From: Eremomyces bilateralis CBS 781.70
Lineage: Eukaryota; Ascomycota; Dothideomycetes; Eremomycetales; Eremomycetaceae
NCBI RefSeq assembly: GCF_010015585.1
Contig: NW_022985086.1
Location: 334,773-398,772 of the forward strand
DNA length: 64,000 nucleotides
Direction: 5' to 3'
Position numbers and translations under genes: made by a program. This document shows, one piece after another, positions 20,552-33,582 of the stretch (positions are counted from its first letter, which is position 1; every line of letters begins with the position of its first letter). The notes under the pieces were generated by a model. It searched no databases. It was not told where the DNA came from and saw only the letters and a list, made by a program, of their open reading frames with translations.

Positions 20552-22261
20552 ACGCACATAACGTCTTTCATGCCATGATCGAACGAACCCACGACATTTT
20601 TCAACGTTTGAGATGAATTCGCATGCTCATGCCTACGCTTCCCCGCATCTCCTGGCGCTTTTTTCGCGGCGCTTTTCGATTATTTCTCGTGGTGCGCTGC
20701 TCTACTTGATACCCGTTACGATAGATCGGGTTCGCCGTGCGGCTTCTGGGCCGTGTTTGTTTCGCATGAAGTCTACCATCGATGGAGGGAAGATACTGGG
20801 ATGTCTTTGGACATCGGGTGCTGGGCACTGGGATAGACGCGCAGGAGGACAAGTCATGGACTGCGAACGATCCCTGGGATGGGACGAGGCAGGATTGCGC
20901 ATAGATGGCAGTTGATGTTCAAGGGTGGAAAAAATTGATTTATAGCTAAAGCGTTGTTCGTTGCGTACTTGTTTGTTTGCTTGCTCGGGAGGTAGATCTG
21001 ATGTACCTTCTGTATCAATCTCAGTTAAAACATAGCTGCTCGTCCTGCATGTCGTGATCTATGTAACCCATTTCCTGTCGATTCAGGTCTTCAAGGCCAT
21101 TTATCGTTGACAACATTTCCCTACGGCCAAATGCCTGCCTCTAGGAAGTCTTGAATCCACAAGGTATCTAAAACGATCGATCTCGACTGAATTACTCTAA
21201 ACTCATCAAAATTGGTTGGTCAATCCGATGGTTGTGGTCAGCATCAGACTTGCACGTGATTCGGAGACTAATTCCCCTGATTCCTCGGCGAATTTCTATT
21301 TCTCCAACCTCGTCGAACATCTCACCACCAGTCCACCTCATTCTTCGTCCAACGTTCGATTGATGTCCTTACCAAGACCTCCCATCCATGCATTCTCACA
21401 TGGGTAATTTCTGAGTATCTTGCTCATGGCTTAACAATGGCAATTCCGGGTGGCATTACGTAAGGTGCCGCGAACCCTGAGCCTCCACGACAAGCAGGAA
21501 GTTTGGTCTCTTTTCCGATATTCAGTATTGTCAGTCTATCCGTTGTCTCCGGACGCAGTCTAGAACTCAGCTCCATCCTCTAATCCCATGGTTTGGGGAT
21601 TTTTTTCCGTTCGGGCCTGTTCTGTCCGCGAATTCCCCCCTGATATACGTGGCGTGATCGTACGTTGGACAATTCTCACGAGGCGGAGAAAGAAAGTTGT
21701 CGATACTGCCAGGGTTTGTACCTGCAGCTACGTCCATTTCTGGTGTACCATTCATTCTCTATGGTTATGGTTTGCTGGGCGATGCTGCGACTAATCTGCA
21801 AAGGACGTTACAGTCTGCCAGGTATCTAGCATGTCCCCAGGTCTCGAGGATCATGAACTGGGAAAGGTAAAGCATAGAGGAAGTGTACTCACCATCTACG
21901 AAATAGGCTCGGATGCAGCGTAGTGCGCATTATGCTCCCCTCGTATGATTGTTCTTGGGAGTCCGGTGACATGACTTGTCTATAGGGGGATCTCATACTC
22001 GATCACGTTCCATTTCTTCATACAGTTTATGTGTTCTTTACGGCTGCATATATGCCAGTGATATCTCACCACACACCTTCATCCATTATCTATCCGATTA
22101 ACCAGAAGTTCACTCCTCGTCTCAATACCACTACAAACGTCAGCTCACTACACAGCATTATACTCACCTACCCAATTTCAACCATCAGTCTACTCTCTTG
22201 AGTCCAAATCCTAGAACAATTGTTGTCAAGTATATCTGCGCAAGTTGCAGAAAATCGTAAC
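20552..22261. other. Intergenic region between glutamate synthase and PEP synthase
   Basis: No gene supported. The right 200 bases are CA/CT-rich and probably form the promoter and leader of the PEP synthase gene. Confidence 0.5.
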
Positions 22262-24688
22262 ATGGCGAGTACCGGAGATCTCGTTCGCACATTCGAAACG
22301 TTATTGCGAGGCGATGTCGCGATAGTTGGCGGCAAGAACTCCTCTCTCGGGGAGATGATCAGCGCCCTCGCAGCAAAAGGGATCGATGTACCCACTGGCT
22401 TTGCAACGACATCAGCTGCGTACTGGCGCTTTGTCGATGCCAACAATATCCGGCAAAAAATATCCGACCTCATCTCGGAATGGCAATCGGGAAAGAGCCA
22501 GCTTGCGGAAACTGGTCAGGCCATAAGGAAGTTGTTCCTACGTGGTGACTGGCCAGAGGATACGGCAACTGCCATCAAGAATGCCTACTGTCAGCTTTCA
22601 GCCAGTGCTGGAATCGAGAATTTAAGCGTCGCCGTACGTTCCAGCGCAACAGCAGAAGATTTACCCGATGCAAGTTTTGCCGGTCAACAGGAAACATTCT
22701 TAAATATTTCAGGCGAAGCGGCATTGTTGACCGCCTGTCGGCGCTGTTATGCTTCACTGTTCACCGATAGGGCCATCAGCTATCGTCAGAACAAGGGGTT
22801 CGACCATATGATCGTTGCACTTTCGATCGGAGTCCAGAGGATGGTTCGCTCTGATCGGGGAGGTTCCGGGGTAATGTTCTCCATCGACACGGAGAGTGGC
22901 TTCGACAAGGTGGTGCTCATCAACGCAGCCTACGGACTCGGGGAAACGGTCGTGCAAGGCGCGGTCAATCCCGATGAATACCAGATCTACAAGCCACTTC
23001 TTAACGATCTCAAACTGGTTCCAGTCATTGAGAAGAAAAGGGGAGAAAAGCAGATCAAGATGGTATATGGTGGGGAAGATATGCCAACCCGTACTGTGCC
23101 GACCTCGAAAGCAGAGCGAGCCTCGTATGTGCTCAACGATGAAGAGATTCTTCAGCTAGCACGGTGGGCTTGCATCATCGAACAACACTATGGTTGCCCG
23201 ATGGACATGGAATGGGCTAAGGATGGAATCACAGATGAACTATTCATCGTCCAAGCCCGGCCAGAGACTGTCCATTCATGTGGAGATGCAGCTACTTTCA
23301 AAACCTATAACGTCGGCAAGAGAGGCACAATATTGACGAAAGGGCTTTCAGTCGGTGAAGCCGCCGTATCTGGTCGCCTGTGCCTCATTGAAAACGCTCG
23401 AGACATAAGCAAATTTGTCGACGGCTCGATATTGGTGACGGAAACGACTGATCCGGACTGGGTGCCAATCATGAAACGGGCCGCGGCCATTATTACAGAC
23501 CACGGCGGGCGAACTTCACATGCCGCAATTGTCAGTCGAGAACTGGGTGTGCCGGCGGTGGTTGGGACGGGCAATGGTACCTATGTGCTACATTCCGGCG
23601 AGGATGTAACAGTCTCTTGTGCTGAAGGTGACGTCGGCTTCGTTTACGATGGCATCTCGGAAATCAAAACTAAAACCGTGGATCTAACGGGATTGCCTCC
23701 GACTCGGACCCATGTCATGCTCAATCTCGCGAATCCCGCCGCCGCATATCGCTGGTGGAAATTACCCGTCGACGGCATCGGCCTTGCCCGCATGGAATTC
23801 GTGGTCACCAACGCGATCCAAGTGCATCCCATGGCTCTCGTGCATTTCGACCTGTTGAAGGACCAAAGAGCCCGGAAAGCGGTCGAGAAGCTCACCATCG
23901 GCTACGACAACAAGCCTGAATACTTCGTCGACAAGCTATCGCGTGGGTTCGCAGCGCTGTGCGCCGCTGTCTATCCCAAGCCGGCCGTCATCCGTATGAG
24001 CGACTTCAAGACAAACGAATACGCAAACCTCATCGGCGGCGAACAGTTCGAGCCGAAGGAAGAAAACCCAATGCTCGGTTTCCGTGGTGCCTCGAGATAC
24101 TACTCCCCCCGCTATAAGGAAGGTTTCGCCCTTGAATGCCAAGCGATCCGCCGTCTCCGCGACAAGATGGGCTTCACCAACGCCATCGTGATGATCCCCT
24201 TCTGTCGAACGGTCGGTGAAGCGGAGAAGGTGCTGGAAGTGATGGCGGAAAACGGGCTGACTCGGGGAGAGAACGGGTTGAAAGTCTACGTCATGTGCGA
24301 GATCCCCTCCAATGTCATCCTCGCCGACCGCTTCATGGAGAAATTCGACGGGTTCTCCATCGGCTCGAATGACTTGACCCAGCTGACCCTCGGCGTGGAC
24401 CGCGACTCGGGCGAGCTAGCGGATCTATTCGACGAGCAGGACGAGGCCGTCCGGTGGATGATCTCGACGGTGATCGCGCAGACGCGGAAGACGGGGAACA
24501 AAATTGGGCTATGCGGACAGGCGCCGAGCAACCACCCGCAGTTCGCGCGGTTCTTGGTGGAGTGCGGGATTAACTACATCTCGGTCAGCCCAGACAGCTT
24601 CGTCGCTGTCAAACAGCATGTGATCGTTGCCGAATCAAACAAGGCAAGGTTGGGGAGCGACGCATCTGCTACACCGTCGTTTTTATGA
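22262..24688 (+). CDS. ppsA: Phosphoenolpyruvate synthase (pyruvate, water dikinase), bacterial type
   Basis: A single 808-residue exon. The enzyme converts pyruvate + ATP + water to PEP + AMP + phosphate. Seen in order: the ATP-grasp nucleotide domain (VGGKNSSLGEM, VAVRSSATAEDLPDASFAGQ, NAAYGLGETVVQGAVNPDEY, DMEWAKDG, FIVQARPETV); the swivelling phosphohistidine domain with His420 in ITDHGGRTSHAAIVSRELG; and the PEP/pyruvate barrel (GIGLARMEF, CEIPSNVILADRF, FSIGSNDLTQLTLGVDRDS) with the catalytic Cys751 in GLCGQAPSN. All key residues of the family are present and the length matches bacterial PpsA. The ATG at 22262 gives MASTGDLVRT. The absence of introns in 2.4 kb and the bacterial architecture suggest acquisition from bacteria, since fungi normally make PEP with PEP carboxykinase. 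It faces the LDH-like gene tail to tail. Confidence 0.95.
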   Translation: MASTGDLVRTFETLLRGDVAIVGGKNSSLGEMISALAAKGIDVPTGFATTSAAYWRFVDANNIRQKISDLISEWQSGKSQLAETGQAIRKLFLRGDWPEDTATAIKNAYCQLSASAGIENLSVAVRSSATAEDLPDASFAGQQETFLNISGEAALLTACRRCYASLFTDRAISYRQNKGFDHMIVALSIGVQRMVRSDRGGSGVMFSIDTESGFDKVVLINAAYGLGETVVQGAVNPDEYQIYKPLLNDLKLVPVIEKKRGEKQIKMVYGGEDMPTRTVPTSKAERASYVLNDEEILQLARWACIIEQHYGCPMDMEWAKDGITDELFIVQARPETVHSCGDAATFKTYNVGKRGTILTKGLSVGEAAVSGRLCLIENARDISKFVDGSILVTETTDPDWVPIMKRAAAIITDHGGRTSHAAIVSRELGVPAVVGTGNGTYVLHSGEDVTVSCAEGDVGFVYDGISEIKTKTVDLTGLPPTRTHVMLNLANPAAAYRWWKLPVDGIGLARMEFVVTNAIQVHPMALVHFDLLKDQRARKAVEKLTIGYDNKPEYFVDKLSRGFAALCAAVYPKPAVIRMSDFKTNEYANLIGGEQFEPKEENPMLGFRGASRYYSPRYKEGFALECQAIRRLRDKMGFTNAIVMIPFCRTVGEAEKVLEVMAENGLTRGENGLKVYVMCEIPSNVILADRFMEKFDGFSIGSNDLTQLTLGVDRDSGELADLFDEQDEAVRWMISTVIAQTRKTGNKIGLCGQAPSNHPQFARFLVECGINYISVSPDSFVAVKQHVIVAESNKARLGSDASATPSFL

Positions 24689-25281: not shown

Positions 25282-26327
25282 TCACAACTCGCCTCTAACC
25301 TGCTCAATCTCGACCTTCAGCGCCTTCGCGGTCTCTTCCAACGTCTTTTTCTCCTCCTCATTCAATTCCACCGGAATCGTCCTAATTGCCCCTTTCCTCC
25401 CCAGCACCACCGGCAAACTCACGCAGCACCCCAGATCCGGCTGAAACGTCGTGAGCGGCCGAACATCTCGTTTGTCGTTCAGTATCGACGAGCAAATACT
25501 CGCCACGATCGCGCCGATGCCGAAGCTGATCGTCCCTTTCGCTTGGATGATCGTCCGGGCGACGTGCTTGCACTGGTCGGCGAGCTCGATGCGGTCGATG
25601 GTGTCAATAGGCAGCGCCTTGTCGATGGGGACGCCGCCAAAGGTCGCGGCGGACCAGGCGATAAATTGAGTTTCGCCTTGCACGCCCAGGACGTAGATGC
25701 CTATTGAATTTGCTTTGGCCTTGAGTACTGTTAGCCGGGATTTAGTGTTGCGATGATAAAAGGTGGTGGACGCACGCCAGCCTTGTCGGCCAACAATCCG
25801 CGCAGTCGGACGGAATCGAGGAAGGTCCCTGATCCTATGACCTGGGACCTTGGGAGTCCTGAGACCCCTAGTGCAATGGTGGTAAGTACGTCGACTGGGT
25901 TCGCTACCACAAGTAGGATCGTGTCATGTCTGAAATGTGGTTTCATCGCATGGATGACGGACTTTAGAGTTGAAATGTTCCTGTACTCGAGTTCAACTGA
26001 AGTATGGCCTAGATACGCATGTTAGCTGTTGTTCTTGGATAGGGAAATGAACTGAACTATCTGTATAGACTTACCTACGTTCTGCTTCGATCCCGCAGTG
26101 ATGATCACGATGTCACACTCTCCAGCCTCGTGATATGTGGCGGATCGTATTCGCGAGCTGCTCTTAGTAGAATACGCAGCATCACTAAGATCATGAGCCT
26201 GGCCATCTCTTCGATCTGTCTTGATATCAACTAGAAGTATCTCGTTCGCAACGGAACCCAAGAGTAGGGCATATGCTGCCGTAGCGCCAACAGTCCCGGC
26301 ACCCACAATTGCAATTCGCGTTATCAT
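25282..26327 (-). CDS. L-lactate dehydrogenase-like protein with altered catalytic residues
   Basis: The exons are 26327-26075, 26008-25776 and 25719-25282, giving 307 residues, near the usual LDH length. Seen: the NAD Rossmann fold IAIVGAGTVGATAAYAL with the NAD-selective Asp in LLVDI, Gln82 of the specificity loop (SKQNVG), the conserved Asn121 in VANPVD, and Asp149/Arg152 in GTFLDSVRLR, matching LDH Asp168 and substrate-binding Arg171. Two positions are wrong for an LDH. The mobile-loop Arg109 (usual GETR) is Ser88 in GHTS. The proton-relay His195 (usual GEHGD) is Gln176 in LGVQGE. The frame is otherwise intact and introns splice cleanly, so it is probably expressed, as a pseudoenzyme, a regulatory protein or an enzyme with a changed reaction. 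The last intron could instead use a nearby acceptor, but only the chosen one keeps the family alignment. Confidence 0.8.
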
Positions 26328-28344: not shown

Positions 28345-28530
28345 TTACCAAGTAGCGGTCGATGCAGTCGGCTTATGATCTGAGTGTAATTCCTCTCGTT
28401 CTCAAAGGTCGCCAGTCCATGACGGATGAAGAAGTTGAGCATCAAACAGGAGTTTGCGGGGCTTAAACTCTTCATCATCCAAACCCAATGAGGGGGCTTC
28501 AAAGGCACTTCTGGACTCTGGAGGCTTTCA
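28345..28530 (-). pseudogene. Relic of a DUF4743/Nudix gene (C-terminal part)
   Basis: Read on the minus strand, this segment encodes NSCLMLNFFIRHGLATFENE, then ERNYTQIISRLHRPL. It aligns with the C-terminus of the intact Nudix protein at 32533-33582 (AAVMIDFLIRHGFITADKEK, then KDYVEIISRLHRKL). Just upstream, EEFKP, equivalent to GEFKP in the intact gene, lies in a different frame, so a frameshift separates the two pieces. The Nudix box and N-terminal half are not found nearby. This is a decayed paralogue in opposite orientation to the intact copy, about 4 kb away. Confidence 0.65.
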
Positions 28531-32532: not shown

Positions 32533-33582
32533 ATGATGCGAAGCGATCTGGAAATCGTGAAAGAGTGCGACAAGTACGTGTGACTGGCTTCGGCTCGCTC
32601 TATACCGCATCAACCCTTCTAAGCTGCCATAACTGACATCTCACCGCTCCCTTGCAGCTTCCCCTACTACGAAGTGGGCAGTGCCGATGCTTTTGCCTCA
32701 GCTATAGAGCCGCTGTGGCTGTTCTATCTGCCAGATGATCCGGAGCCACATGGTTTCCTGATTGATTCGGTCGTGAAGCGCATGCCTTGGACAGCCAAAT
32801 TCCGCATCGATCTCTCCCCGCGCAAGGAGGTGCATCTTCTAAAACCGGAAGGCAATGATGACTGGCAAGCTGCCTGCGCCGACGCCATTGATGAGCTGCT
32901 CGATCTCGCGCGCGCAGAGAACGCCTTTCCCCACCTTGGCAAGAAGCGTGATGAGCAGTTCCCCATCATTGGCGCAAATTTTGACATTGGCATTGAGCGC
33001 TCGGCTATGAGTCTTTTTGGCATTGTCGGCCGCGGCGCGCACATGACGGTGTTCACGCGTACGAATGAGGGCATTAAATTTTGGGTCCCGCGCCGCAACG
33101 CAAACAAGTCGACATGGCCCAACATGCTAGACCAAGCCGTTGCAGGTGGCGTGGGGCGCGGCGAGACCCCGTTCGAGTGTATTGTCCGCGAGGCGGACGA
33201 AGAGGCTGCCTTGCCCAATGAGCTGGTGCGGCAAAACATCGTGGCAGCTGGCACGGTGACCTGGTTCAACATCTCTGACGAGAAGGCCGGGGGTGAACTA
33301 GGGCTGATGAACCCCGGCGTGTTGTACGTCTATGACCTCGAGGTTGGCGAGGACATGGTCTTTAAACCGGTCGACAATGACATCCAAAGCTTCCACTTGA
33401 TGAGCGTGGACGAGGTCAGGCATGCCATGGGAAGCGGCGAATTCAAGCCCAGTTGCGCAGCCGTCATGATAGATTTCCTTATAAGACACGGATTCATCAC
33501 TGCTGACAAGGAAAAAGACTATGTTGAGATTATTTCGAGGTTGCATCGCAAGCTTCCCTTCAGGACAAGCCCCGGATACTGA
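32533..33582 (+). CDS. Nudix hydrolase with N-terminal DUF4743 domain (thiamine-pyrophosphokinase-related type)
   Basis: The exons are 32533-32573 and 32658-33582, with an 84-nt intron in phase 2, giving 321 residues. An N-terminal domain of about 125 residues (SAIEPLWLFYLPDDPEPHGF, KRMPWTAKFRIDL, FPIIGANFDIGIERSAMSLFG) precedes the Nudix domain. The Nudix box is complete: GGVGRGETPFECIVREADEEAAL fits G-x5-E-x7-R-E-x2-E-E, here residues about 175-197. This family is annotated as thiamine pyrophosphokinase-related, but members are pyrophosphohydrolases. The yeast relative YJR142W acts on oxidised thiamine diphosphate derivatives, so damage control of thiamine cofactors is a reasonable inference. 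The C-terminal MIDFLIRHGF...EIISRLHRKL motif is also found in the decayed copy at 28345-28530. Confidence 0.88.

Follow-up and report, generated by a model that had tools for sequence, protein, structure and literature searches.

In descriptions of the lactate dehydrogenase (LDH)/malate dehydrogenase (MDH) superfamily, His195 and Arg109 figure among the conserved catalytic residues, and the locus analysed here raises the question of what function a member may have that is intact and evolves normally but possesses neither of the two. Such a protein would be either a pseudoenzyme, in which a well-studied metabolic fold serves a binding or regulatory role, or an oxidoreductase that relies on another proton route. 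The gene concerned lies in a 64,000-nt stretch of DNA (hereafter the window) from contig 20 of a genome of 26.6 Mb in 62 contigs, which we read as fungal from its gene content and its intron-bearing genes. Searches of one open-access literature library returned no description of such a fungal LDH variant.

Gene structure and active-site residues of the LDH-like protein

The LDH-like gene occupies positions 26327-25282 on the minus strand and consists of three exons that run from start codon to stop codon in a stop-free frame of 307 residues. Exon 1 (26075..26327) carries the start codon, the NAD-binding GAGTVG motif, Asp34, and Gln82 (the counterpart of Gln102 in LDH), and extends up to the mobile loop. 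After intron 1 (26009..26074; 66 nt, gtaagt...ctag), exon 2 (25776..26008) encodes the mobile loop GHTS with Ser88 (the Arg109 site), followed by Asn121 (Asn140), Asp149 (Asp168), and Arg152 (Arg171). Exon 3 (25282..25719), which is separated from exon 2 by intron 2 (25720..25775; 56 nt, gtgcgt...caag), encodes the catalytic domain, including Val175-Gln176-Gly-Glu178 at the Glu194-His195-Gly-Asp197 site, Arg217 at the Tyr237 site, and Ile226 at the Thr246 site, as well as the stop codon. All of these features are on the minus strand, and both introns have GT..AG ends with CTAAC, presumably the branch-site consensus, close to the 3′ end. Along the same gene (25282-26327, minus strand), third-position GC content rises from 0.45 in exon 1 to 0.56 in exon 2 and 0.75 in exon 3, a gradient that may stem from gene conversion or from differing exon histories.

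The encoded protein scores above the curated cut-offs of both Ldh domains in Pfam (PF00056, Ldh_1_N, 106.9 bits against a cut-off of 27; PF02866, Ldh_1_C, 79.4 bits against 22.6), which places it within the LDH/MDH superfamily fold. Its score against the L-LDH equivalog model TIGR01771 is 260.1 bits, under the cut-off of 303.55, of which a paralog on contig 22 (C22; described below) also falls just short at 302.9 bits. Among the best 60 of 130 matches in a PDB sequence search, the top relatives are named L-lactate dehydrogenase, with 2zqy in the lead (E 5e-53).

Active-site positions were assigned by aligning the LDH-like protein with the C22 paralog and with 58 LDH/MDH-family rows from prokaryotes, of which 57 are bacterial and 1 is archaeal by record title and sampled group. 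These rows are the best-scoring matches of sampled genomes, including 30 loci taken from longer match lists, and the sample is therefore tilted to ordinary LDHs, such that a low-scoring protein without His195 could be missed. LDH numbering follows alignment to the residues named in PMC9486893 and PMC4109310, from which the labels Glu194, Asp197, and Tyr237 were counted. In the excerpt of PMC9486893, the reactive residue is His195, which Asp168 polarises; the transition state is stabilised by Arg109, the substrate is bound through Arg171, pyruvate is recognised through Gln102, and all LDHs share Thr246. The excerpt of PMC4109310 names Arg109, Asp168, Arg171, and His195 as catalytic residues that are conserved even in the loop-altered clade of hydroxyisocaproate dehydrogenase-like proteins (HicDHs).

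The first-pass annotation had placed Gln176 (LGVQGE) at the proton-relay His and Ser88 (GHTS) at the mobile-loop Arg, with the NAD site, Asn121, Asp149, and Arg152 kept, and the alignment bears out each of these assignments. The two columns hold His and Arg, respectively, in 58/58 prokaryotic rows and in the paralog, that is, in every relative aligned, none of which is an orthologue. Further changes, absent from the first-pass annotation, came to light at four sites, namely Val for Glu194 (Glu in 55/58 rows), Arg for Tyr237 (Tyr in 48/58), Ile226 for Thr246 (Thr in 55/58 and Ala in 3/58), and, as a milder change, Glu for Asp197 (Asp in 52/58 and Glu in 5/58). The protein retains the Gln102, Asn140, Asp168, and Arg171 sites. 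With regard to the superfamily catalytic set, it has Asp168 and Arg171 but Ser in place of Arg109 and Gln in place of His195; with regard to canonical L-LDH, it has the specificity residue Gln102 but not Thr246.

Two additional positions were considered. According to the excerpt of PMC9486893, position 199 is invariably Asp or Glu in LDHs, and the LDH-like protein has Gln180 there; Gln also occurs in the C22 paralog and in 9/58 prokaryotic rows, and site 199 therefore does not single out the LDH-like protein. Asp68, described in the same excerpt as contributing to a salt bridge with Arg171 (PMC9486893), is present in both the LDH-like protein and the paralog, and the column is His in 46/58 rows.

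Family members, origin and pattern of divergence

Across the genome, matches to the Ldh Pfam domains fall in four genes: the LDH-like gene, the LDH gene on C22, and one gene each on C11 and C13. We read the latter two, whose exons contain the motifs GMTRD and GGHSG, as malate dehydrogenases. The C22 paralog (L003, 368345-369356) has exons at 369356-368871, 368823-368767, and 368719-368345 and encodes 305 residues; with its motifs NDTR and GEHGDSQ it carries both Arg109 and His195 and looks like a canonical LDH. It shares 45.7% identity with the LDH-like protein across 302 residues, and the two genes are sisters in both trees, with a FastTree support of 0.997 and an IQ-TREE UFBoot value of 100. 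They also share an intron position, as intron 2 of the LDH-like gene and intron 1 of the paralog interrupt the same codon boundary, past coding base 486 in each. An identity of the LDH-like protein as MDH or HicDH was considered as well and rejected on the basis of Gln102, the absent loop insertion, and the tree position.

Bacterial relatives are more distant. In 199 genomes of a single bacterial phylum, the closest full-length match has 39% identity (one 48-residue piece reaches 40%), and plasmid matches do not exceed 36.3% among the matches listed (20 of 89 records). Given the lack of a full-length bacterial relative above 39%, the sister paralog, and the shared intron, the LDH-like gene most likely arose by duplication in the fungal lineage and not by transfer from bacteria; on these grounds and on the low identity of the plasmid matches, a joint transfer with the adjacent ppsA-like gene (see below) was rejected. 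Wider scans were also carried out, of which those with a single protein depend on six exact eight-residue patterns and are insensitive. In viral contigs, the six patterns of the LDH-like protein gave 31 pattern matches and a two-sequence alignment gave 184, none of them a relative in either case, and in a genome-contig collection the six-pattern scan found 8 relatives, whose titles all denote prokaryotes.

The two sister genes have diverged to a similar extent from their common node, with branches of 0.66 (LDH-like) and 0.62 (paralog) substitutions per site in FastTree and of 0.73 and 0.62 in IQ-TREE, and relative-rate tests against 6 outgroups gave no significant result (all chi-squares <3.84, the largest being 3.06). 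Retention of consensus residues was then compared in conservation classes defined on 51 LDH rows. The LDH-like protein and the paralog keep 28 and 35, respectively, of the 36 sites conserved to at least 95%, 29 each of the 57 sites at 80-95%, 21 and 22 of 64 at 60-80%, 21 and 23 of 70 at 40-60%, and 19 and 11 of 74 below 40%, so that the LDH-like protein falls behind only in the most conserved class. At 56 sites conserved to at least 90% in the 51 LDH rows, 10 departures are found in the LDH-like protein alone, 2 in the paralog alone, and 3 in both, and the contrast of 10 with 2 is statistically modest (binomial p 0.039). Six of the ten unique departures (88, 175, 176, 178, 217, and 226) are in or beside the active site by a list drawn up post hoc, in which residues 175, 178, and 217 are taken by us, from LDH structure, to lie in or next to it. 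When these six sites are excluded, the LDH-like protein keeps 43 of 50 conserved residues and the paralog 45 of 50.

Near-equal branches together with similar retention elsewhere indicate that the losses concentrate in the active site. These patterns suggest that the fold has been maintained and that it is specifically the catalytic centre that was abandoned or remodelled. The first-pass annotation had argued against random decay from the intact reading frame, and this argument is supported by the frame itself, by the near-equal branch lengths, and by the fact that conserved residues away from the active site are retained as usual.

Functional interpretation and genomic neighbourhood

The explanation that we favour, at a probability of about one half, is that the LDH-like protein is a neofunctionalised, catalytically compromised LDH duplicate and serves as an NAD/2-oxoacid-binding pseudoenzyme. 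According to this explanation, the gene is a fungal duplicate of a canonical NAD-dependent L-lactate dehydrogenase. It still encodes the fold and the NAD motif, along with Arg171 (for the substrate carboxylate), Asn140, Asp168, and Gln102, but three residues are gone, namely the proton donor (His195 to Gln), the mobile-loop Arg that acts on the transition state (Arg109 to Ser), and Thr246. Since the acid-base residue at 195 and the loop Arg are absent, pyruvate/lactate interconversion is predicted to be severely impaired, and on the established mechanism the ordinary hydride and proton transfer would no longer proceed at a useful rate. It stays plausible that the protein binds NAD(H) and a small 2-oxo acid, given its NAD motif, Arg171, Asn140, and Gln102, and the retained residues point to a present role that may consist in binding NAD(H) together with a small 2-oxo or 2-hydroxy acid. 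The protein might act as a sensor, a regulatory partner, or a subunit of a hetero-oligomer with the canonical paralog or with a pyruvate-handling enzyme.

The principal alternative, to which we assign a real though minority chance, holds that the LDH-like protein is still an NAD-dependent oxidoreductase, which would act on another 2-hydroxy/2-oxo acid or have its acid-base chemistry arranged differently, for instance with a water relay via Asp168 or with Arg217 in place of the lost loop Arg. Position 237 lies near the mobile loop in LDH structures, and the Arg gained there could be compensatory. The retention of Asp168, Arg171, Asn140, and Gln102 suits an altered enzyme as well as it suits a binding protein and in this respect counts against the latter, and the changes at 107, 109, 194, 195, 237, and 246 resemble a coherent remodelling of the pocket rather than a single lesion. 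On the other hand, His195 is present in all 58 prokaryotic rows of an alignment tilted to ordinary LDHs, and the excerpt of PMC4109310 reports that even the HicDH clade, divergent as it is, conserves both His195 and Arg109.

It is also conceivable, but in our view unlikely, that the LDH-like gene is a decaying duplicate, a pseudogene in the making whose frame is open by chance. The loss of active-site residues would fit such a course, as would a dN/dS near 1: the NG86 method gives a dN of 0.54 to the C22 paralog and no valid dS, and because dS to this only fungal relative is saturated, the pairwise dN/dS is unusable. Neutral simulations that start from the paralog sequence and introduce point mutations only leave 2031 of 20000 runs stop-free at 15% amino-acid change, and this tenth of open runs likewise counts against the pseudoenzyme reading; the number drops to 265 of 20000 at 27% and 58 of 20000 at 35%. 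Decay is further opposed by the lack of any stop or frameshift, by a branch length close to that of the paralog, and by a retention that follows conservation class as it does in the paralog, with the losses clustered in the active site.

The convergent neighbour of the LDH-like gene is a bacterial-type phosphoenolpyruvate (PEP) synthase gene (ppsA-like; 22220..24688, plus strand), a single open frame of 822 codons whose stop codon is 593 bases from that of the LDH-like gene. Its listed TTG start is mechanical, and the in-frame ATG at codon 15 is the likelier start. The product scores 1086 bits against TIGR01418 (cut-off 739.75), the single match in the whole genome, and is 70% identical to a Rhizobium ppsA in a search of plasmid records; this identity and the uninterrupted frame suggest that the gene was probably transferred from bacteria. 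According to the excerpt of a review (PMC8100219), most annotations of a PEP synthase in eukaryotes concern leotiomyceta fungi and are not backed by functional evidence. A link of the LDH-like gene to pyruvate metabolism through this adjoining, sole PEP synthase is possible, although suggestive only. Elsewhere in the window, a lone inverted fragment (28353-28460, minus strand) resembles 36 residues near the C-terminus of a gene at 32674-33582 (plus strand; 50% identity, E 4e-9), which we take to be of the Nudix type; the fragment, some 4 kb from that gene, may be what is left of a duplicate.

The adjacency allows for a further reading, which we consider as improbable as decay, namely that the LDH-like protein is a weak but ordinary LDH that supplies pyruvate to the PEP synthase in a gluconeogenic route from lactate through pyruvate to PEP. 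The convergent position of the genome's sole PEP synthase, the LDH fold, and Gln102 are consistent with it, but His195, Arg109, and Thr246 are gone, a canonical-looking LDH is already encoded on C22, the L-LDH equivalog score is under the cut-off (narrowly so for the paralog as well), and gene adjacency in a single genome is weak evidence.

A more specific idea concerns the control of the PEP synthase, which in Escherichia coli is exerted by the regulator PDRP (PpsR), as stated in the excerpt of PMC8100219. A search for PpsR (PF03618) gave no match in this genome, and the same search was positive in only 3 of 14 control genomes, in 6 of which the PEP synthase model scored over its cut-off; a PEP synthase without PpsR is therefore not unusual. 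We hold it to be a long shot that an LDH-fold protein, conserved in fungi with an acquired bacterial PEP synthase, would have traded dehydrogenase chemistry for NADH/pyruvate sensing and would control or partner the PEP synthase as a stand-in for PpsR. Least credible of all is an artefact of sequencing or of a wrong gene model: a single base change suffices for His to Gln, but several separate active-site positions are altered (88, 175, 176, 217, and 226), and since exon 2 encodes GHTSVELEYRN, apart from the initial base of the Gly codon, and LGVQGE is encoded inside exon 3, both key motifs are independent of splice choice.

Comparison with known systems

The closest known system is canonical L-LDH, as represented by the C22 paralog, TIGR01771, and the PDB entries 2zqy, 1llc, and 1a5z. 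The LDH-like protein shares with it the fold, the length, the NAD motif, Gln102, Asn140, Asp168, and Arg171, and differs from it in having Ser at 109, Gln at 195, Ile at 246, Val at 194, Glu at 197, and Arg at 237. As the canonical-looking sister gene resides in the same genome, the two proteins are directly comparable.

The HicDH clade belongs to the same LDH/MDH superfamily, and the stretch GETQFIAW is common to the LDH-like protein and the loci L008-L010, which are presumably HicDH-like; the stretch itself served as one of six patterns in the search, and its sharing with these loci thus partly reflects how they were found. In HicDHs, as described in the excerpt of PMC4109310, the loop carries an insertion between positions 102 and 109, residue 102 is neither Gln nor Arg, and Arg109 and His195 are kept. 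In contrast, the LDH-like protein has Gln102, contains no loop insertion, and has lost Arg109 and His195, which sets it apart from that clade. A third point of reference is UEVLD, an LDH-fold protein with a perhaps non-metabolic role. This human protein consists of a UEV domain fused to an LDH/MDH-like domain, according to the excerpt of PMC12513931. Unlike UEVLD, the LDH-like protein carries no UEV domain and opens directly with the Rossmann domain, and the likeness between the two is one of fold.
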